Assembly: GCA_903919975.1 (NCBI GenBank)
Contig: CAIXKE010000003.1
Coordinates: 1-64,000, forward strand
Length of the DNA: 64,000 nucleotides
Direction of reading: 5' to 3'
Source: Akkermansiaceae bacterium
Lineage (GTDB): Bacteria > Verrucomicrobiota > Verrucomicrobiia > Verrucomicrobiales > Akkermansiaceae
Under the pieces are notes generated by a model that had not been told where the DNA came from, did not search any database, and was given only the letters and a program-made list of their open reading frames with translations. A program made the translations under genes and the position numbers. This document shows, in pieces, positions 56,340 to 64,000 of this stretch (positions are counted from its first letter, which is position 1; each line of letters opens with the position of its first letter).

Positions 56340-56981
56340 ATGATCACCACCCGTAATCTCGTTCGTTGTGTTGCTGCCGTGACGGCTTTGCTGTTCGCGA
56401 GTTGCGCCACCCAGAAGCCGACTGTCCAATACGACAAGAACGGCAAGCTGATCAACCCATACCCGGTCGGGACCTATGATCATTTCATCACCGATCCGAC
56501 TTACCCGAAGACTCACAGCGTCTGGAAAAACGAGGAGTTGCTCACCCGGACCGGACCGGAAAACTCACACATCAAAATCAATCTCAAGACCCAGCGCGGA
56601 CTTTTGATGAATGGCGATGAGATCGCGATGGACTACCCGATCTGCTCCGGCACGAAAAGCCGGCCGACACCAACGGGAACATTTTACATCTTGGAGAAAC
56701 TCGTTGAAAAAAACTCAAACCGCTACGGCCGGATCTACGACGCCGAGGGCACATGTGTGAACAGCGATGCCGACGCTAGCATCGACCCCATCCCCGAGGG
56801 CGGTAAGTTTCAAGGGGCTTCCATGAATTATTGGATGCGCTTGACCAATGACGGCGTCGGCCATCACATCGGTCCTATCCGCCGCTATCCGGCATCCCAC
56901 GCTTGTGTCCGTGGCCCTAGCAAAACGATTCCCACCGTTTTCGGTAAGGTGAAGCCGGGCACGCAGGTGGTTATCGAGTGA
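56340..56981 (+). CDS. L,D-transpeptidase (YkuD domain) lipoprotein
   Basis: Protein of 213 residues with a lipoprotein signal (MITTRNLVRCVAAVTALLFA, lipobox FASC). The YkuD catalytic domain has IKINLKTQRGLLMNGDEIAM, SRPTPTGTFYILEK, GHHIGPIRRYPASHACVRGP and KPGTQVVIE. SHACVR carries the catalytic Cys; most family members have SHGCVR, so the Gly-to-Ala change is a slight oddity. It would form 3-3 crosslinks in peptidoglycan or anchor proteins to it. The start at 56340 gives a clean signal peptide. Confidence 0.9.
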   Translation: MITTRNLVRCVAAVTALLFASCATQKPTVQYDKNGKLINPYPVGTYDHFITDPTYPKTHSVWKNEELLTRTGPENSHIKINLKTQRGLLMNGDEIAMDYPICSGTKSRPTPTGTFYILEKLVEKNSNRYGRIYDAEGTCVNSDADASIDPIPEGGKFQGASMNYWMRLTNDGVGHHIGPIRRYPASHACVRGPSKTIPTVFGKVKPGTQVVIE

Positions 56982-56988
56982 TGGAGAT

Positions 56989-57825
56989 TCAGGCGGTCGT
57001 GCCGCTCCAATGCCAGAGGCTCGGGTCGAGTTCGTGGCGGGCGCATTTGGCGAGAGCCTCGGCATCGGCGAAATCGTGGAGGACAGCGAAGACCGAGGAG
57101 CCGGATCCGCAGAGCAGGGCGGCGGTGGTTTCCCGGCGGTCGAGCAGCCATTGTTTGAGTTCGGCGAGAAAGCGGTGTTTGGCAAAGACCGGGCGTTCGA
57201 GGTCATTGACGATTGAAACGCCGCCCACTTCCTGGGGCTCATAGCGAATGCCGGGGAGTTCTTGTGCGCCGCTCCAGCGGCCGTAGGCATCGGGGGTGGG
57301 CACGTTGAACCACGGTTTCAAAAGCAAGGTTTTCAGCGGGGCGGGGGAGGGAGTCGGCGCGATGAGCTCACCGCGGCCGGTGCAGCGGGCTGCACCGGGG
57401 CTCAGGAAAAACGGTATATCCGAGCCCAAGGATGCGGCGATTTCTTGCAAGCGGGCGGAGCCAAGCTTGGCATCATGAAGTTGGTCGAGTGCGAGCAAAG
57501 TCGTGGCGGCATCGCTGCTGCCACCGCCAAGGCCGGCTCCGTGGGGGATGTTTTTTTGCAGGGAGATGGCGAAATTGCAGACGATTCCGGCGGCGCTTTC
57601 GTAGGCTCGAACGGCCTTCACCACGAGATTCGTCTCATCATTGGGGACACCGGGTTGATCGCAATGGAAGGAAAACCCTGAGGACTCACGAAACTCCAAC
57701 TGGTCGTTCAACCCGGGCAGCTTGACCATGGTGGTGTCGATTTCATGAAAGCCATCGGCGCGTTTGCCGAGGACGCGCAGGGAGAGATTCAGTTTGGCAG
57801 GCGCTTGCAGGGTGAGGGTGCTCAT
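56989..57825 (-). CDS. ispE: 4-diphosphocytidyl-2-C-methyl-D-erythritol kinase
   Basis: GHMP kinase of 278 residues of the MEP isoprenoid pathway, phosphorylating CDP-ME. Motifs are APAKLNLSLRVLGKRADGFH (N-terminal motif), the ATP-binding PHGAGLGGGSSDAAT, LGSDIPFFLSPG and ALLCGSGSSVFAV (motif 3). The stop is 7 bases from the convergent L,D-transpeptidase stop. It overlaps pgeF by 4 bases, so the two are co-translated. Confidence 0.95.
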   Translation of the reverse strand: MSTLTLQAPAKLNLSLRVLGKRADGFHEIDTTMVKLPGLNDQLEFRESSGFSFHCDQPGVPNDETNLVVKAVRAYESAAGIVCNFAISLQKNIPHGAGLGGGSSDAATTLLALDQLHDAKLGSARLQEIAASLGSDIPFFLSPGAARCTGRGELIAPTPSPAPLKTLLLKPWFNVPTPDAYGRWSGAQELPGIRYEPQEVGGVSIVNDLERPVFAKHRFLAELKQWLLDRRETTAALLCGSGSSVFAVLHDFADAEALAKCARHELDPSLWHWSGTTA

Positions 57826-58502
57826 GGCTGGGAATCACGGACGATCAGGGCCATCATGCGGCCGGTTTTTCCAAGTTCTTTGCGGTAACTGTAGAAACGG
57901 GTGAGATCAGACGCGGTATTGAGTCCGCAGTCGATGAAATTTCCCACGCGTGCGCGTTCCGCCTGGTGACCGATTTCCGCAGCGAAATCGATGTCGTAAT
58001 CCGGCGGGCGGATGCACGGGCCAAGCACGGCGGTCACATCTTCGGGGCAGGTGCCGAATTGCACGGCCATCCGTTCCAAGGCTTTCTGAAATATATTGGA
58101 TTCGGTGCCTTTTTTCCCGGAATGCAGCAAGCCGATCGCTCCGGTTTTTCGGTCCGCCAGCCAGATTGCACCGCAATCGGCGACGTAGATGGCGAGCACG
58201 ATGCCGGGCTCGCAGGTGATGAGTCCATCGGCATCAGGGATGCAGGGCAATCCATCCGGGGCGATGATTTCCTGGCTGCCGGGGGCGAGAGCCACGGTGT
58301 TGCCATGGACTTGCTCGGCACGCCAGCAAGGTGCGGACGGGCCAGCGAATGCCGCAAGTGCTGCGGCATGCGCGGGCCGGAGTTGGCTCATCGCTTGATC
58401 GCGATCTCCGGTGATCGGTAAGTCCGGGATGCGTTCAACCCATCCGGCGCGGACGCCGGAGATCGCATGCAAGGGTGCTAAAAAGGATGGTGTCTCCGTC
58501 AC
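57822..58502 (-). CDS. pgeF: Multicopper-like PgeF/YfiH family protein (purine nucleoside phosphorylase)
   Basis: Protein of 226 residues of the YfiH/DUF152 family, known as a purine nucleoside phosphorylase and formerly called a laccase-domain protein. Motifs are AEQVHGNTVAL, DADGLIT, VLAIYVADCGAIWLAD (metal Cys), LLHSGKKGTESNI (metal His, usually HAGWRGT), LGPCIRPPDY and FYSYRKELGKTGRMMALI. The start is a GTG at 58502, and the true start could be a little downstream. It precedes ispE and overlaps it by 4 bases. Confidence 0.88.
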   Translation of the reverse strand: MTETPSFLAPLHAISGVRAGWVERIPDLPITGDRDQAMSQLRPAHAAALAAFAGPSAPCWRAEQVHGNTVALAPGSQEIIAPDGLPCIPDADGLITCEPGIVLAIYVADCGAIWLADRKTGAIGLLHSGKKGTESNIFQKALERMAVQFGTCPEDVTAVLGPCIRPPDYDIDFAAEIGHQAERARVGNFIDCGLNTASDLTRFYSYRKELGKTGRMMALIVRDSQP

Positions 58503-58566
58503 CCGGGAAGGGTAATGGAGACACTAAGGATTGGCCAAGCGGGTTTTACGCTGCAATCCGCATATC

Positions 58567-58694
58567 AACCACAGATTTCACAGAATACACAGATTATAAA
58601 TGCTTAGCGTGGATTCAGGATTTCAACCAGTAGGTGAAATCCTGACAACCGCATCGATGAATCAATCCTCTGTGAAATCTGAGTGATCTGTGGT
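58567..58694. repeat. Long imperfect palindrome, AACCACAGATTTCACAG type, copy D
   Basis: AACCACAGATTTCACAGAAT pairs with CTGTGAAATCTGAG...GATCTGTGGT at the other end. An inner perfect hairpin AGGATTTCA/TGAAATCCT nests inside. It lies between divergent-free ends of pgeF and the MarR gene. Confidence 0.75.
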
Positions 58695-58748
58695 CAATAG
58701 GCCTGTTTGTGCCTTCCAACTGCGGATTCTAGGTTTACACTTGGGCGC

Positions 58749-59204
58749 TCAAACCATGGAGCGGCCACGCATGGCGCGCTTGGTGTGCTCGACCGCTTCC
58801 GTTTGATCCTCATCCATCTCGGAGAGGATGTTTGCCAGATCGTTCGAGATTTCAGAGCGCATTTTGGAAACGAGTTCGGTTCCTTTTTTGGTGATGCGCA
58901 CCATGATTTTACGACGGTCTTCAGCAGCGTGGGTGCGTTCGACGTATGCGAGTTTTTCGAGGCGATCGACCAAGCCGGTGGCGGCGGCCGTTGAATGGCC
59001 CATCTTCTTCGCGATATCCGACATGGTCAGATATTCTTCGCTGGATAGATAGGTGAGGAGGAAGAACTGGGGAAAAGAGACGTTTCCTTTGTTGAGTTCT
59101 GTTGATAGGTTGAGGATGCAGCTCCGCTGTGTAAACAGGACGAAGTCAGCAAGACGGTCTGCCTCGGCTTTCACCGAAGCGCCCGGGGCGTTCTTGGTTT
59201 TCAT
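58749..59204 (-). CDS. MarR-family transcriptional regulator
   Basis: Winged-helix regulator of 151 residues. The recognition helix region is LTMSDIAKKMGHSTAAATGL, followed by VDRLEKLAYVERTHAAEDRR (wing with DRR) and KIMVRITKKGTELVSKM. N- and C-terminal helices would form the dimer. MarR proteins typically repress an adjacent gene in response to phenolic or oxidative ligands. The adjacent genes here are pgeF and a REP/RAYT element, so no target is obvious. Confidence 0.9.
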   Translation of the reverse strand: MKTKNAPGASVKAEADRLADFVLFTQRSCILNLSTELNKGNVSFPQFFLLTYLSSEEYLTMSDIAKKMGHSTAAATGLVDRLEKLAYVERTHAAEDRRKIMVRITKKGTELVSKMRSEISNDLANILSEMDEDQTEAVEHTKRAMRGRSMV

Positions 59205-59446
59205 TATGGCTGGTTGTAGTGTTCATGTTTCGGGACATGTAAGGGTGCACGGCCATTGCAACATTGAAGATACCCGCATTGGCGGATGGTTACCACCGCT
59301 AAAATGCAAATTTTTTCAGTTCAAGGGCTGTGCGAGTCGGGACTTTTTGAAAATACACAAGTCTAAGAGGTTTTGGAAGAAAAGAAATCGGTAAAAGTTG
59401 ATTATTTTTAAAATACTGGCTTAGGCTGTTTTGTGATGGGACTCGC
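59205..59446. other. Gap between MarR gene and REP array
   Basis: No gene is seen. Sequence is unremarkable until the REP-like hairpins start at 59447. Confidence 0.4.
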
Positions 59447-59808
59447 CGGACAAAATGTCCGTCATCCAACAGCGCGCAGAATGCACGCGCTCCGGCACGG
59501 AGCGCCGATACGGAGCGCTGATACGGAGCGCTGATACGGAGCGCTGATACGGAGCGCCGACATTCTGTCGGCTGCCGGACGGGGGACATTCTGTCACCCG
59601 TCTTCCGCGAAGCGACTCGCCGGACAAAATGTCCGTCATCCAGCAGCGCGCAGAATGCACGCGCTCCGATACGGAGCGCCGACATTCTGTCGGCTGCCGG
59701 ACGGGGGACATTCTGTCACCCGTCCTCCGAGAAGCGACTCGCCGGACAGAATGTCCGTCATCCAGCAGCGCGCAAAATGCACGCGCTCCGGCATGGAGCA
59801 GAGATGAC
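59447..59808. repeat. Left REP-like hairpin array
   Basis: Three units, the last one partial, each composed of several short hairpins around a shared core GACA-NNN-TGTC: CGGACA-AAA-TGTCCG, GCCGACA-TTC-TGTCGGC and GGGGGACATTCTGTCACCC, linked by a GCGCG...CGCGC arm pair. The units repeat at roughly 125-150 bases. The unit is also present on the right side of the transposase gene, as expected for REP sequences tied to a RAYT. Repeat lengths and spacers do not fit CRISPR. Confidence 0.85.
59507..59558. repeat. Four tandem copies of GATACGGAGCGCT
   Basis: The 13-base units expand the loop between two hairpins in the first left REP unit; the last copy ends in CC instead of CT. The other units have one or none, so this is a local slippage expansion. 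Confidence 0.85.
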
Positions 59809-59859
59809 GAAACCAATGCACACGCGCCACATTTTCTCTCAATTACTCCCTTGACGCCA

Positions 59860-59883
59860 AATAATGTTCATAAGAACATTATT
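59860..59883. promoter_or_regulatory. Perfect palindrome just before the RAYT start
   Basis: AATAATGTT-CATAAG-AACATTATT has 9-base arms and ends one base before the ATG at 59885. It could bind a repressor or sequester the start region as an RNA hairpin. It differs from the GC-rich REP hairpins. Confidence 0.5.
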
Positions 59884-59884
59884 C

Positions 59885-60487
59885 ATGAAATTTCTAAACC
59901 CAGACGCAGAGGTAATAAGGCACGGCAGTGCATTACCACATTGGCAACAAGGGCAAGCGGCACAGTTTCTAACCTTCCGTCTCTCCGATGCGTTGCCAGT
60001 GTCGTTGGTAAACGACTGGCGGGTGAAACGCGATGAATGGCTTGCCGGGAATCCGAAACCGTGGTCGGCGGAAATACACGCAGAGTATCATCGGCTGTTC
60101 AGCCGAAAAATCGAGAAGTGGCTCGATCAGGGCATGGGATCCTGTTTGTTTGCCGATCCCGCATCTCGCACGCTGCTAGCGGAAACGTTAATGCGTTTTC
60201 AGGGAGAACGAGTGATGCACCATGCATGGGTGATTATGCCGAACCACCTTCATGTGCTCTACAGTCCTCTCGAGCCGCAGGATAAATTGATACAGGCATG
60301 GAAATCCCACAGCGCCCGCAGTCTCGGGCGCGGACCGATCTGGCAGCGGGATTATCACGACACGGTGATTCGCGATTGGGATCACTTTAAAAATGTGGTG
60401 CGTTACATACGCCGCAATCCCCTGAAAGCAAAATTACCAGAACGAAGTTTTACGCTATGGGAAAGCGAAGCAGCAAGCCGACTCTGA
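59885..60487 (+). CDS. REP-associated tyrosine transposase (RAYT)
   Basis: Protein of 200 residues of the TnpA_REP/Y1 single-strand transposase family (IS200/IS605-related). The HUH motif is HHAWVIMPNHLHVLYSPLE (HLH) and the catalytic Tyr lies in VVRYIRRNPLKAKL. QAWKSHSARSLGRGPIWQRD with YHDTVIRDWDHF is the typical pre-catalytic helix and loop of these proteins. RAYTs cut and mobilise REP hairpins. The gene is flanked on both sides by REP-like arrays (59447-59808 and 60510-60681). An ATG at 59864 lies within the palindrome; the ATG at 59885 (MKFLNPD) is preferred. Confidence 0.9.
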   Translation: MKFLNPDAEVIRHGSALPHWQQGQAAQFLTFRLSDALPVSLVNDWRVKRDEWLAGNPKPWSAEIHAEYHRLFSRKIEKWLDQGMGSCLFADPASRTLLAETLMRFQGERVMHHAWVIMPNHLHVLYSPLEPQDKLIQAWKSHSARSLGRGPIWQRDYHDTVIRDWDHFKNVVRYIRRNPLKAKLPERSFTLWESEAASRL

Positions 60488-60696
60488 AGAAGTGCCGATA
60501 TGCAGGAGCGCCGACATTCTGTCGGCTGCTGGCGCGGGGGACATACTGTCACCCGTCTTCCGCGAAGCGACTCGCCGGACAGAATGTCCGTCATCCAACA
60601 GCGCGCAGAATGCACGCGCTCCGGCATGGAGCGCCGACATTCTGTCGGCTGCTGGCGCGGGGGACATTCTGTCACCCGTTCCGGATCATTTCGGAC
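60488..60696. repeat. Right REP-like hairpin array
   Basis: Two units begin about 60510 and end near 60681: GCCGACATTCTGTCGGC, GGGGGACATACTGTCACCC, CGGACAGAATGTCCG, then GCCGACA...TGTCGGC and GGGGGACATTCTGTCACCC. They have the same orientation as the left units. The last hairpin stops 15 bases before the lipoprotein stop codon. Confidence 0.85.
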
Positions 60697-61101
60697 TTAC
60701 TCAGGAAGCGTTTCAGGCGGCTTTGCTTCCGGGGCCGGTTCGGGGGCGGGCGGAACGGCTTGGGGAGTGGGCTGGGAATAAACGGCGTCGCCGATTTCCA
60801 CGGAGCCGGATTGGAGGTCTGCTGCGGCGAATTGGCCGAGGGATTCGCCGGTGGCGAGTAGATTGGCACTGCGTTTTTCTGGTCCCCGGGTGGTCAGGAT
60901 ATTGCCGGATTTTATCGTTTGTCGCCCGTAAGTTTGGATCAGAACGAAGCGTCGATCCGCAGGGATCGAGGCGATCCGGCCGATGAGTTGCGGGGCTTCT
61001 GGGGCAGGGGGGGCGACAGGCTCTGAGGGCTTGTTCGTGGTGCAGGCGGGGGCGGCCATGAGGACGATGGCGGCAAGGCAGAGACGAATGCGGGATTTCA
61101 T
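60697..61101 (-). CDS. Small Pro-rich lipoprotein
   Basis: Protein of 134 residues with a lipoprotein signal (MKSRIRLCLAAIVLMAAPAC, Cys 20). A short beta-rich core follows (QLIGRIASIPADRRFVLIQT, KSGNILTTRGPEKRSANLLA, SGSVEIGDAVYSQ), flanked by Pro/Ala/Glu-rich tails. The core looks like an SH3-like or small beta-barrel. No family is recognised. It starts 2 bases after the birA stop, so it is likely in the same transcript. Confidence 0.65.
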   Translation of the reverse strand: MKSRIRLCLAAIVLMAAPACTTNKPSEPVAPPAPEAPQLIGRIASIPADRRFVLIQTYGRQTIKSGNILTTRGPEKRSANLLATGESLGQFAAADLQSGSVEIGDAVYSQPTPQAVPPAPEPAPEAKPPETLPE

Positions 61102-61103
61102 GA

Positions 61104-61910
61104 TCAATCGAGGATGCGCACTTCGTCGGCTTGGATCAGGCATTCCAGGCCGTGATCCGTTCTGAGGAGGAGTTCGCCGCCTTGGGCGATGCCCTCGACG
61201 GTGCCTTGTTTGAGCCCGCTGGAAGTGGAGAGCGAAACCCGGTGATCGGTGAGCACGCAACGTTGGCGGACGGCGTTGAGGAGATCGGTGAACTCGCTGC
61301 CAATCTGGTTGCGGCGGATCGCAAAGCGGCGGACGACGGCCGCCAGCACTTCGGCGCGCGGGATTTGCAGGCCGGTTTCGAGGCTTAATGAAGTGGCGAT
61401 TTCTGAAACTTCGGGGGGGAAATCGGTGGTGTGAACGTTGAGGCCGATCCCGATGATGGCGAAATCCGGGCCGGCCTCGACGAGGATGCCAGCGATTTTG
61501 CGGCGGCCGATCCAGACATCGTTGGGCCATTTGATGCCGGTGGGCGGGCCGAATGATTCCACAGCTTCCGCGATGGCGAGGCCGGTGGCGAGGGCGAGTC
61601 GCGGCCAGAGCGCCTTGGGTTCCTGCGGGCGGACGAGGATGGAGAGGGCGAGCGATTCTCCCGGCGGCGAGAACCAAACCGCGCCACGGCGGCCACGGCC
61701 GGCGGTCTGGCGGAGGGCGAGCAAGACCAAGCCATCGGCAGCTCCGCCGCATGCCAGGGAGCTCAGATCGTCGTTGGTCGAGTCCGCCGTTTCCCGGATC
61801 AATAGGCGGAAGGGATCGGGGAAATGATGGGCGATGCCGGAGAATTCATCCTGAATTCCGAAGTCGTTTGGTGTTTGTGATCGGTTAACCACGGATTTCA
61901 CAGATTTCAC
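61104..61910 (-). CDS. birA: Biotin-[acetyl-CoA-carboxylase] ligase
   Basis: Monofunctional BirA of up to 268 residues (no N-terminal DNA-binding domain), attaching biotin to the carrier protein of acetyl-CoA carboxylase. Motifs are DSTNDDL (biotin loop), LRQTAGRGRRGAVWFSPPG (the GRGRRG adenylate loop), GIKWPNDVWIGRRKIAGILV and IGIGLNVHTTDFP. The C-terminal SH3-like domain ends LECLIQADEVRILD. The only upstream starts (GTG at 61910 or 61892) fall inside a palindromic repeat element, so the true start is uncertain; part of the 5' end may be supplied by the repeat. Confidence 0.9.
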   Translation of the reverse strand: MKSVKSVVNRSQTPNDFGIQDEFSGIAHHFPDPFRLLIRETADSTNDDLSSLACGGAADGLVLLALRQTAGRGRRGAVWFSPPGESLALSILVRPQEPKALWPRLALATGLAIAEAVESFGPPTGIKWPNDVWIGRRKIAGILVEAGPDFAIIGIGLNVHTTDFPPEVSEIATSLSLETGLQIPRAEVLAAVVRRFAIRRNQIGSEFTDLLNAVRQRCVLTDHRVSLSTSSGLKQGTVEGIAQGGELLLRTDHGLECLIQADEVRILD

Positions 61911-61991
61911 GGATTTGATACTCCACCAAAGAGGTTTTCCGTTTTGGTTTTATAACCTCTTCAAAATCTGTGCTAATCTGCGTAATTTGCC
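61887..61991. repeat. Long imperfect palindrome, AACCACGGATTTCACAG type, copy E
   Basis: AACCACGGATTTCACAGATT pairs partly with AAAATCTGTGCTAATCTGCG...TTGCC. An inner hairpin AAGAGGTT/AACCTCTT is also present. It overlaps the 5' end of birA. Confidence 0.65.
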
Positions 61992-62042
61992 TTTGGCTAT
62001 CTCCGCTGCGCTCCGGTTGTGGTTCAATTTCTGTTTTCGGGT

Positions 62043-62912
62043 TCATGGGGTGAGGTCCTTGCCCCTCAGTGGGATGAAATCCAGCCCGATATCGAGCGAC
62101 GGAGCCGAGTGGGTGAGTGCACCGACCGAGATAAAGTCCACGCCGGTTTCCGCGATCTCGCGCAGGGTGTCCAAGGTGACGCCGCCGCTGGCTTCCAGCA
62201 GGGGAGTGGTGCGCTCACCGCGGGCGGCGATGGCTTGGCATATTTCCGCGGGGTTCATGTTATCGAGCAGGATGTAATCGATCCCATCCAGAGTGAGGAA
62301 GGTGCGCAGTTGATCGAGATCATCGGCTTCCACTTCCACTTCGACTCCGGGTTTTTCGCTTTTCAGGCGTTGGATGGAAGCTTGGAGCGCCGCAGGTCCG
62401 CCCTCGGCGACGAGGTGGTTGTCCTTGACCATGGCTCGGTCGTAGAGGCCGAGTCGGTGATTGGTGCCGCCGCCGTGCAGGACCGCCTGTTTTTCGAGCA
62501 TTCGGTATCCGGGTGTGGTTTTACGGGTATCGAGAATGCGGGCGTGACCTCCGCGGATGAGATCGACGTATTTGGCGGTGAGGGTGGCCACGCCGCTAAG
62601 GCGTTGGAGGAAATTCAGAGCGGTGCGTTCGGCGGTGAGGATCGAGCGGGCCTTGCCTTCGACGCGGATCAGCAGGGCTCCCTCGCTGACACGGCTACCA
62701 TCCGGAACAAGAATCTCCACTTCAAGCTCGGGATCGACTTTTGAGAAAACCCGGGCGGCCAATTCCACGCCGGAAACCGCACCTTCCTGACGGACGGCGA
62801 CGAAGGCTCTGGCCACGCGGGTTTCGGGAACAAAATAGTGCGAGGTGACATCGCCGGGGCCGATGTCTTCTTCGAGGGCGAGAGCAATGAGAATTTCCGA
62901 GTGGTCCTTCAT
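62043..62912 (-). CDS. nadC: Nicotinate-nucleotide pyrophosphorylase (carboxylating)
   Basis: Enzyme of 289 residues converting quinolinate and PRPP to nicotinate mononucleotide in NAD synthesis. Motifs are EEDIGPGDVTSHYF, ERTALNFLQRLSGVATLTAK, ILDTRKTTPGYRMLEKQAVL, GGTNHRLGLYDRAMVKDNHL and VEVEADDLDQLRTFL. The C-terminus has GGVTLDTLREIAETGVDFIS. The ATG at 62912 shares one base with the upstream stop (TGATG), so it is coupled to the YdjY-domain gene. Confidence 0.95.
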   Translation of the reverse strand: MKDHSEILIALALEEDIGPGDVTSHYFVPETRVARAFVAVRQEGAVSGVELAARVFSKVDPELEVEILVPDGSRVSEGALLIRVEGKARSILTAERTALNFLQRLSGVATLTAKYVDLIRGGHARILDTRKTTPGYRMLEKQAVLHGGGTNHRLGLYDRAMVKDNHLVAEGGPAALQASIQRLKSEKPGVEVEVEADDLDQLRTFLTLDGIDYILLDNMNPAEICQAIAARGERTTPLLEASGGVTLDTLREIAETGVDFISVGALTHSAPSLDIGLDFIPLRGKDLTP

Positions 62913-63706
62913 CACGGCTTGAGCTGTGGGCGGAGGCGCAGAATGACCTTGCTGTTGAGTTCGGGCAGCTTATCACCATCGACCTCCCAAATCAGGGCCC
63001 CGTTGGAGTGATCATGGACGTCCGGCAGGCATAACAACTCGTCGCCGAAGGTGGCGAGCGAGATGACATTGCCATTCACATCGCACAGGTATTGGCGTGG
63101 TCCCTTGCCTTCGTTTGCGAGAATCGAGCCTGCGAAAAGGAAGGTATGGGTCGGGAACTTTTTCGCGGCTTTCGGGGTTTCCTCGGCATTTGGTGTCCCT
63201 GTTCCATCGTCTTGATCGGCGGCTTTGATGAACTCGTTGATCGGATGCTCGGTTTCTTTTCCTTCGGCGTCTTTGAAAACGAGGAAAACCCCCACTGGGT
63301 TGCCGCTCGGCGGGGTGGACCGAAACCGTGTCATCTCGGGATCGATCGCTTCCTGCATCGCCGGATTGCCGGGCTTGGCCCCGAGCAGCAACAGCGCCGT
63401 ATGCACGTGGCTGGGCTTGGCCTCGATCATGATGATCGACTCATGCTCCTTGCTGTCTTTGGTGCAGGCGATCAGTTCCAGCATGCCCTCCTTGAGGCAG
63501 ACGCGGCTTTCGACATCCACGCAGCGTTCCTCCAAATTGATTTTCACGCCGGGAATGACCAGTTTGGCCAGTGCGGCTTTCATTTCGGGGGCGATTTTAT
63601 GCGTTTCTCCTGCCGTTGCGGGCGCGGGTGCCGGGGCCGGTTCATCCGCCGCGTGGGCGGCAAGCAAGATAGTAAACAGGCAGCAGGTGAATGCACGGAA
63701 GTTCAT
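62912..63706 (-). CDS. Exported YdjY-domain protein
   Basis: Protein of 264 residues with a signal peptide (MNFRAFTCCLFTILLAAHAA). The YdjY domain is recognisable by VKINLEERCVDVESRVCLKE, LELIACTKDSKEHESIIMIE, AKPSHVHTALLLLGAKPGNP and FLVFKDAEGKETEHPINEFI. The family is common in Planctomycetes and Verrucomicrobia and its function is unknown. The ATG at 63706 begins the signal peptide; a start 18 bases upstream is possible. It is the first gene of a pair with nadC. Confidence 0.78.
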   Translation of the reverse strand: MNFRAFTCCLFTILLAAHAADEPAPAPAPATAGETHKIAPEMKAALAKLVIPGVKINLEERCVDVESRVCLKEGMLELIACTKDSKEHESIIMIEAKPSHVHTALLLLGAKPGNPAMQEAIDPEMTRFRSTPPSGNPVGVFLVFKDAEGKETEHPINEFIKAADQDDGTGTPNAEETPKAAKKFPTHTFLFAGSILANEGKGPRQYLCDVNGNVISLATFGDELLCLPDVHDHSNGALIWEVDGDKLPELNSKVILRLRPQLKP

Positions 63707-63888
63707 CGAAAAGATCGATGACACGGCAGAGCCCCAAATACAAGCGCCTGACGCAAATCCGCGTTAATTTGCCTCAGAATTCCAATCATTTGGCTCGGTT
63801 TCCAAGGATCTTTATCAAAGATACGTCTCCTGCCTCGCAGCGGACACCCTCCGGCATTCCGGAAAAATATCCAACAAAGCTTCCGACC

Positions 63889-64000
63889 ATGGCAAATCTT
63901 CGTTCCTCTTCATCTCCGCGTAAAACCACCGTGAAAACCGCTCCATCGATCTTATTTCATGCCTGTTCGACCGATACGGACATGCTCTATTTCAGTCGTT
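63889..64000 (+). CDS. Start of a possible Xaa-Pro aminopeptidase (M24), cut by window end
   Basis: From the ATG at 63889 the frame stays open to the edge and reads MANLRSSSSPRKTTVKTAPS, then ILFHACSTDTDMLYFSR. The segment DTDMLYFSR resembles the N-terminal domain of verrucomicrobial aminopeptidase P-like proteins (ADMLYAT type). Only 37 residues are visible, so the call is tentative. Confidence 0.4.
   Translation, partial: MANLRSSSSPRKTTVKTAPSILFHACSTDTDMLYFSR

Follow-up and report, generated by a model that had tools for sequence, protein, structure and literature searches.

RAYTs (REP-associated tyrosine transposases, REP standing for repetitive extragenic palindromic sequence) are usually described as host-friendly transposases that lie beside REPs and whose mobility is hard to see. 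In this study, we analysed a stretch of 64,000 nucleotides from an Akkermansiaceae bacterium (contig CAIXKE010000003.1, our contig C3, in a genome of 3.81 Mb and 112 contigs; hereafter the window), in which a RAYT gene is set within an array of multi-hairpin repeat units. According to the accessible text of five reports (PMC3733652, PMC6006769, PMC8266576, PMC2817692 and PMC3686654), REPtrons, REPINs (REP doublets forming hairpins) and BIMEs (bacterial interspersed mosaic elements), REP dimers with structured spacers and translated intragenic REPs are already known.

The REPtron of E. coli (TnpA_REP, crystal chain 4er8, with its BIME/REP sequences) resembles the window locus in having a nuclease with an HUH motif (histidine-hydrophobic residue-histidine) and a tyrosine, encoded beside inverted REP dimers, and in having REPs dispersed between genes. 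The W, Q and R of its GTAG-reading region also align with the window protein. In contrast, the tag in the window is GGAG rather than GTAG, the stems are perfect and short, the unit holds two further hairpins, and E100 and H101 of TnpA_REP are replaced by D and T (4er8 alignment, numbering as in the available part of PMC6006769). TnpA_REP subclass 2.7 and the group 3-like RAYTs, as described in the accessible parts of Quentin 2018 and Corneloup 2021, share with the window locus a D at position 100, perfect palindromes, short loops and a tyrosine motif, YI[LR][NQ]NP, that resembles YIRRNP of the window protein, whereas their tags are GT[AG]G; this is a likeness by description and not a class assignment. 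The GTAG- and CGTC-tagged REP superfamilies (Di Nocera 2013, accessible part) likewise have a tag at one hairpin end, head-head dimers with structured spacers, tandem clusters and intragenic REPs. Finally, the Rickettsia palindromic elements and other intragenic REPs, as far as the available part of PMC3733652 describes them, are palindromic repeats translated within genes, whereas in the genomes studied here a whole RAYT gene can lie between palindromes inside a host open reading frame (ORF).

We conclude that the window locus is very probably a REPtron, in which a RAYT is flanked by tandem copies of a mobile REPIN/BIME-like unit that it processes. We also lean, with considerably less assurance, towards a broader picture in which RAYT cassettes have two habitats, intergenic arrays and in-frame loops of essential enzymes. 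In the second, REPs would act as translated linkers and the nuclease would mostly be kept, in an intein-like manner without splicing and recurrently at given positions (the IspG linker, two sites in MetH and a loop of LeuS near residue 398), while the clade of the window gene would be set apart by its GGAG guide and multi-hairpin mobile unit. Judged against the accessible parts of the literature, the GGAG guide in a RAYT clade, the multi-hairpin unit plan and the RAYTs in frame in LeuS, IspG, MetH and CarB look undescribed, and an earlier description elsewhere is possible.

The window locus: a RAYT gene among multi-hairpin units

A complete unit is 117-118 nt long and consists, in order, of GGAGC, hairpins A, B, C and D, and GCTCC. 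Hairpin A is GCCGACA-TTC-TGTCGGC, B is GGG(G)GACA-TTC-TGTC(A)CCC, and C is CGGACA-NNN-TGTCCG. Hairpin D (AGCGCGCAGAATGCACGC) reads on the (-) strand as GGAGC followed by GCGTGCA-TTC-TGCGCGC, with six Watson-Crick pairs and one T-G pair, so that the unit begins and ends with a GGAG-tagged hairpin and its tags face outward. The core GACA-NNN-TGTC, which the original prediction had assigned to the hairpins in general, is thus present in A, B and C and not in D. The unit ends, GGAGCGC and GCGCTCC, are able to pair. With A and D inverted, the tags outward and a tandem period of 122 nt, the unit is a REPIN/BIME-like dimer with A and D as terminal hairpins, from which it differs by the inner hairpins B and C.

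The claim that a RAYT gene lies among about five such units was borne out, as three complete and two partial units were found, all of them, like the gene, read on the (+) strand. From the left, the array starts with a partial unit at 59440-59493 (hairpin C as CGGACA-AAA-TGTCCG, and a hairpin D ending in GCGCTCC). The 13-base expansion noted earlier is also real: at 59497-59557 the tandem repeat ACGGAGCGCTGAT runs for 4.7 copies with 97% matches and corresponds to the GGAG tag plus the left arm of hairpin A. Complete unit 1 (59551-59667, with both the GGAG and the CTCC tag) is followed 122 nt later by unit 2 (59673-59789), the RAYT gene (59864-60487), unit 3 (60505-60622) and a last partial unit with the GGAG tag and hairpins A and B (60628-60679). 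The pattern GACANNNTGTC occurs 12 times in the window, always within 59449-60673; in 100 dinucleotide shuffles of the window its mean count was 0.85 and its maximum 4.

The RAYT ORF (207 aa) matched the NCBIfam family REP_Tyr_transpos (NF047646) with an E value of 3.3e-19 and E. coli TnpA_REP (4er8) with 2.1e-5. It carries an HUH motif, N127-H-L-H130, a guide-reading region, W160-Q-R-D-Y-H-D-T-V-I-R-D171, and a single catalytic tyrosine, Y181, within YIRRNP, so that the tyrosine is followed by three residues and NP. Judged by its sequence, the product of 59864-60487 belongs to the RAYT family and is a predicted single-strand DNA nuclease. The alignment of MKFLNP.. with the start of the protein of a sister locus (L065) suggests that the true start is the ATG at 59885. 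As is typical of RAYTs, inverted REP hairpins stand on either side of the gene, their 5' tetranucleotide (GGAG) being conserved, and a low gene copy number goes with many dispersed REPs (one copy and 49 distinct complete units). An AlphaFold model of the protein, built from three sequences, had a mean pLDDT (predicted local distance difference test score) of 44.5 and was not used.

The unit was predicted to be more complex than a REP pair, and this plan proved to be common to the nearest RAYT relatives. Among the matches listed, these relatives lie at other loci and are 71% (L066/L082), 66% (L065) and 65% (L068) identical to the window protein. L065 has hairpins A, B, C and D on both sides of its RAYT; at L066/L082 one flank holds four hairpins and the other three; and L068 has tagged A and D with other hairpins between them. 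The L065 unit folds as four hairpins within a closing stem (-42.9 kcal/mol, z -8.9, DNA parameters). Around other free RAYTs stand two-hairpin dimers or tandem series; their tag is (AA)GGAG, and their stems have the core GACA-N3/4-TGTC or are of another kind. Only the clade of the window gene showed the multi-hairpin unit, which thus tracks the RAYT clade, in a hairpin listing of sister RAYTs from which imperfect inner hairpins could escape.

RAYT genes in frame within essential enzymes

Two further RAYTs of the same genome are embedded in frame in essential enzymes. One (contig C92) lies within the genome's only MetH, a protein of 1142 aa (L063:3779-7207), and the other (C80) within its only IspG, of 854 aa (L062:3688-6252). 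Perfect inverted ends, CAGTGGCGCGGGCGTCCCGCCCGCAGCC ... GGCTGCGGGCGGGACGCCCGCGCCACTG (CAGTGGC..GCCACTG), enclose the MetH insert and form a REP pair with outward GTGG tags. We searched 59 genomes for RAYTs and, among the matches listed with open frames of at least 500 aa, took 58 (2 from this genome and 56 others; one, G019:C47, was left out). Their hosts cluster as IspG (15), LeuS (11), MetH (11), CarB (5) and a glycosyltransferase (3), with smaller clusters of NUDIX proteins, Eco57I-type methylases, HsdR-like proteins and TPR proteins (2 each) and five singles, which include a RhuM protein, an adenosine deaminase and a further HsdR. The main hosts were confirmed by profile searches with 16 of the 58 ORFs, which covered all singles and every cluster at least once (for example leuS_bact at 978 bits, CarB at 1667, metH at 1125 and ispG at 463); among these 16, L108, L118 and L123 gave no informative host profile.

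The catalytic residues of the nuclease are mostly kept in these proteins. Both the HUH motif and the tyrosine are present in 56 of the 58 embedded and 32 of 33 free RAYTs; in the embedded exceptions, L124 and L125, the matched stretch stops just before the tyrosine (EYI..). Ratios of nonsynonymous to synonymous substitution rates (dN/dS, by the NG86 method) were 0.05-0.30 for 14 close embedded pairs and 0.07-0.25 for 8 free pairs, where pairs share rows and one identical pair has no value. The embedded nuclease is thus under purifying selection in the close pairs sampled. Hairpins adjoin 51 of the 58 embedded RAYTs, with the tag GTGG at 52 feet in 25 loci (9.1 expected) and GGAG at 36 feet in 16 loci (7.1 expected).

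Inteins, too, are nuclease genes carried in frame inside essential enzymes. The present inserts differ in being bounded by DNA hairpins (no search for a splicing motif was made), and those in LeuS and IspG sit where uninterrupted relatives have a short variable stretch. In the searchable literature we found nothing on RAYTs together with leucyl-tRNA synthetase. Among the papers listed on in-frame insertion of tyrosine transposases in housekeeping genes, nothing relevant beyond PMC3686654, PMC6006769 and PMC3733652 appeared in the accessible text. Quentin 2018, in its available part, states that members of the family with unexpected length were removed, being taken for fusions or annotation errors.

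As separate observations, the MetH-embedded RAYTs of two species (L145 in G015 and L146 in G017) are identical in protein and DNA (dN = dS = 0), and the free RAYTs of the same genomes (L077, L081) differ slightly; the identity reflects either a recent transfer or closely related genomes. Open frames of more than 600 aa are numerous among the matches listed for 141 genomes of the class, and we draw no claim on a wider spread of embedded RAYTs from them.

Uninterrupted, filled and decayed insertion sites

To survey the insertion sites, we searched the 59 genomes, own genome included, with the joined host proteins and read the rows manually. IspG was uninterrupted at the joint in 35 genomes (two of them partly seen), split in 20, shifted without an insert in 1, half seen in 1 and absent in 2. 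The 20 split genomes, own genome among them, all belong to the same genus, and contig ends truncate the halves in G001, G010 and G026. LeuS was uninterrupted over its length in 29 genomes, including our own, and at the joint in 4 more; 5 were unclear. It was split near residue 398 in 21 genomes, with a RAYT in 12 of these (11 fetched loci and G019:C47). MetH was uninterrupted in 21 genomes and split at 744 in about 16 (RAYT seen in 9), while the split at 626 was present in our genome and three others, with a RAYT seen in our own and in G036. In about 12 genomes of other families of the order, MetH was also split at another linker (query residues 407-437), with open frames of up to 1724 aa.

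A closer comparison, which left out L153, L154 and L180-L184 (L174 and L184 gave no LeuS joint and L180 no IspG anchor), revealed intermediate states. At the LeuS joint, each of the 7 uninterrupted examples has a spacing of 25 aa between the anchors, and in all 11 examples with a RAYT this spacing is 233-298 aa. Between these lie seven short forms, of 36-67 aa. One, L168, is a pure REP pair of 41 aa with two GGAG-tagged hairpins and holds this pair alone where L099 and others have the pair with a RAYT between; another, L169, has a single hairpin. The remaining five have no hairpin, so that length variation at this site is not always made by REPs. At the IspG site, L175 has a REP hairpin without a RAYT, and in L176 only the C-terminal end of the RAYT is left. 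On a quick IQ-TREE phylogeny, the LeuS-embedded RAYTs show 4 changes of host label, at least 2 of them on well-supported branches, and the tag type changes 3 times on the same tree. At least two RAYT lineages therefore occupy the one LeuS site, having arrived either by separate insertion or by replacement.

These site states bear on a different explanation, according to which the RAYTs in LeuS, IspG, MetH and CarB are an old fused domain with a role in the host enzyme, such as nucleic-acid binding, and the hairpins are by-products. The retention of HUH and tyrosine in most copies, together with the dN/dS range, does speak of selection for function, and the largely host-specific clades would fit long vertical inheritance. 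However, such a domain would not be expected to be so patchy, with IspG uninterrupted in 35 and LeuS in 29 of 59 genomes, nor to have REP-bounded ends alongside forms, at those very sites, that are partly deleted or keep REPs only. Several unrelated hosts, two sites in MetH and a LeuS site taken by more than one RAYT lineage also argue against it. We therefore regard a fused host domain as doubtful, while granting it some weight.

A GGAG tag beside RAYT genes

The tag was examined at 32 RAYT loci (the window, its paralogue on contig C22, one metagenome-assembled genome and 29 loci of relatives). In an unbiased count, every tetranucleotide was scored at both feet of hairpins with a stem of at least 7, a loop of 2-6 and a position within 300 nt. 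L066, which shares a contig with L082, was excluded from tag and tree counts, L011 (the C73 RAYT) from tag counts, and L067 was unused. GGAG ranked first, at 89 of 232 hairpin feet (8.06 expected) and in 26 of 32 loci; four loci (L083, L091, L095 and L096) had no hairpin by the search rule. Hairpin density was 1.74 per 300 nt adjoining the RAYTs and 0.13 at 700 nt or more. When near-duplicates were removed, GGAG stood at 89 of 110 hairpins, GTGG at 3, CGTC at 1 and GTAG at 0, unlike in the GTAG- and CGTC-tagged superfamilies, whose unpaired GTAG (GTRG) or CGTC foot tag is thus not a feature of these loci. CGTC itself, which is present in the window unit, was considered as the tag and rejected, as it was found at 1 of 232 feet.

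GGAG could also be a familiar GTAG or GTGG tag in another register, as in the GTAGGAG.. and GTGGGAG.. of Pseudomonas, with its first letters diverged. REPs of this kind are tabulated in PMC2817692 and PMC3686654, GGAG differs from GTAG by one letter, and tags are degenerate at positions 2 and 3 according to PMC3733652 (accessible text in each case). Yet GTA precedes GGAG in 2 of 91 cases beside RAYTs and GTG in 0 of 91, the commonest preceding letters being ATAA, CCAA and CTAA, which makes this register unlikely. The triplets before the 49 own units are likewise variable (TAC 22, CAT 6, CAA 5 and others).

As a word start, GGAG did not occur in the accessible main text of PMC3733652, PMC2817692, PMC3686654, PMC6006769 or PMC8266576, a check that does not cover longer sequences, and among the papers listed for RAYT, GGAG and Planctomycetes, no title or abstract start had such a tag. 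By the guide rule that relates tag and cleaved dinucleotide (accessible part of PMC8266576), GGAG would predict cleavage at CT through A3G4, or possibly at CC through G2G4. With its altered guide letter, its many species and its clear hairpins, the clade offers a natural test of this rule, both for residue against base and for the dinucleotide cut.

Residue 101 was considered as a reader of tag base 2. Where it is T, R or Q and a tag was scored (45 loci), the tag is GGAG in 39 and GTRG in 6 (all R); where it is H, the tag is GTRG in 28 of 28 scored loci, and 18 more loci have no clear tag. On the tree this pattern amounts to one or two independent contrasts and so is indistinguishable from common descent, and we keep the notion as an idea only.

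Units dispersed through the genome

Further units were expected elsewhere, between genes, and this is what we found. Genome-wide, each strand has 185 occurrences of GACANNNTGTC, compared with 10 of the reversed pattern. A two-unit query gave 50 matches, 7 of which are antisense echoes of others, and 38 unit places lie outside the window when overlapping matches are counted once. Unit arrays stand at about ten contig ends (C1, C41, C55, C62, C77, C82, C90, C98 and C103), so the unit count is a minimum; the assembly probably breaks within arrays and underestimates the copy number. The 49 distinct complete units from the fetched loci have a mean pairwise identity of 0.915. They start with GGAG in 46 cases (the others being GGAA, GGAT and, in one diverged unit, L057, GTAG) and end with GCTCC in 49 of 49; L058 and L059 are lone palindromes without a unit.

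Neighbouring genes were called by a simple hexamer score at 39 loci; at 13 of them a neighbour went uncalled or the locus runs to a contig end. In the other 26 both neighbours were called, and at 24 of these no called ORF overlaps the unit, the flanking genes being convergent at 12, in tandem at 11 (one of which is the window locus) and divergent at 1. The remaining two loci are borderline, with an ORF between two units (L033) and an open-ended ORF that runs 110 nt into the unit (L042).

The original prediction saw in the window array a possible source of REP spread, and the array does hold the RAYT and three complete units. As the master copy behind the genome's units it is nonetheless improbable: by mean identity to the others its complete units rank 7, 18 and 34 of 49, the most central unit lies elsewhere, and other arrays are present, including those at contig ends.

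The placement of the units might instead suggest that the hairpins are retained for terminating transcription or stabilizing mRNA and that the RAYT is incidental, since 12 convergent and 11 tandem loci against 1 divergent put them mostly at 3' ends. Known REPs are likewise found mostly at 3' ends (accessible part of PMC3733652). This explanation does not predict GGAG-tagged hairpins beside the RAYTs of many species at other loci, and we consider it very improbable as a full account; termination and mobility are compatible, as a mobile repeat may be best tolerated at 3' ends.

An ordinary IS200/IS605 insertion sequence whose subterminal hairpins are repeated by chance is barely credible: the shared HUH/Y1 superfamily, a weak Pfam Y1_Tnp match (13.4 bits, E 0.085) and hairpins at both ends would fit, whereas IS copies are near-identical and this gene is single-copy with its nearest paralogue 53% identical, no second transposon gene is evident by eye among the ORFs of 56500-64000 (no profile search was made), the hairpins are dispersed without the gene, and the tags face outward at both unit ends as in REPINs.

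Many units are set in a wider mosaic. The flanks of L039, L048 and L050, for example, carry AATGCCTTTAAGGATTC and hairpins such as GGAATTCATTCC and GGGCTTCAGCCC; several of these hairpins are preceded by GGAGC, and the repeat homology reaches about 330 bp. To the left of the full hairpin A, many units (L040, L044, L049, L043 and others) have a half-copy like GGAGCGCCGACATCCTAC, which resembles the 13-nt expansion of the window and may have been left by cleavage or slippage in the loop of the hairpin.

Proposed mechanism and its weighing

We propose that the REPtron of the window operates on its units when these are single-stranded. The RAYT would bind GGAG plus the hairpin, the guide would select a nearby CT by pairing with A3G4 (possibly CC with G2G4), and the tyrosine would cleave. 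The unit would then be excised and rejoined elsewhere, and either this cleavage or slippage at hairpins could give rise to tandem arrays and 13-nt expansions. In this genus, whole REPtrons may also have inserted in frame into permissive loops of LeuS, IspG, MetH and CarB, where the nuclease would have been conserved in many, though not all, lineages. Such a cassette would persist because its imprecise loss would kill the host gene.

Several results weigh against this account. For the window locus, the NF047646 score of 69.2 bits falls under the curated cut-off of 80 bits (the embedded relative L097 scores 79.8), and the minimum-energy fold of unit 3 is a long A-D hairpin with inner stems on both strands (z -4.0 and -4.8) and not four hairpins. 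A precise empty site of the window unit was not seen in the genomes compared, one per species. The hexamer caller missed the window RAYT itself, so its calls of no ORF have limited force, and the window's own units, as given above, are not the most central. The 53% identical paralogue on C22 has a REP of its own, whose pattern has 5 exact matches in the genome, 3 of them beside the gene; of the two free REPtrons, it is thus the window one that has expanded. For the embedded genes, both MetH copies at the 626 site have lost the NP after the tyrosine (YILRHV in our own L063, YILRHQ in L150), and our own IspG copy (WHEEYYDHVATD) has lost the Q and R of the guide-reading region. One pattern for the dispersed REPs of these two own embedded RAYTs was matched 7 times, including 3 times at MetH and IspG, and by that pattern they form no large family.

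In these genomes, roughly 200 nuclease residues can be part of LeuS, MetH, IspG or CarB. Since uninterrupted, REP-only, decayed and full states occur in single-copy essential genes, the movement and retention of RAYTs become directly testable, and embedded cassettes give insertion-site states that intergenic REPs rarely give.

Neighbouring genes and another RAYT locus

Between its two neighbours, the window locus contains the hairpin array and a single gene. On the right, a (-) strand ORF has its 3' end at 60697, and a Pfam search with its piece 60697-61020 gave no match; on the left lies a MarR-like gene at 58749-59204 (-). In the hairpin listing, no tagged REP pair was present at L061, on contig C73 of the same genome. 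At L061:5248-5291, beside a 40% identical RAYT, there is a 19-bp stem, AGGACTTCAGTCCGTTCTT..AAGAACGGACTGAAGTCCT.

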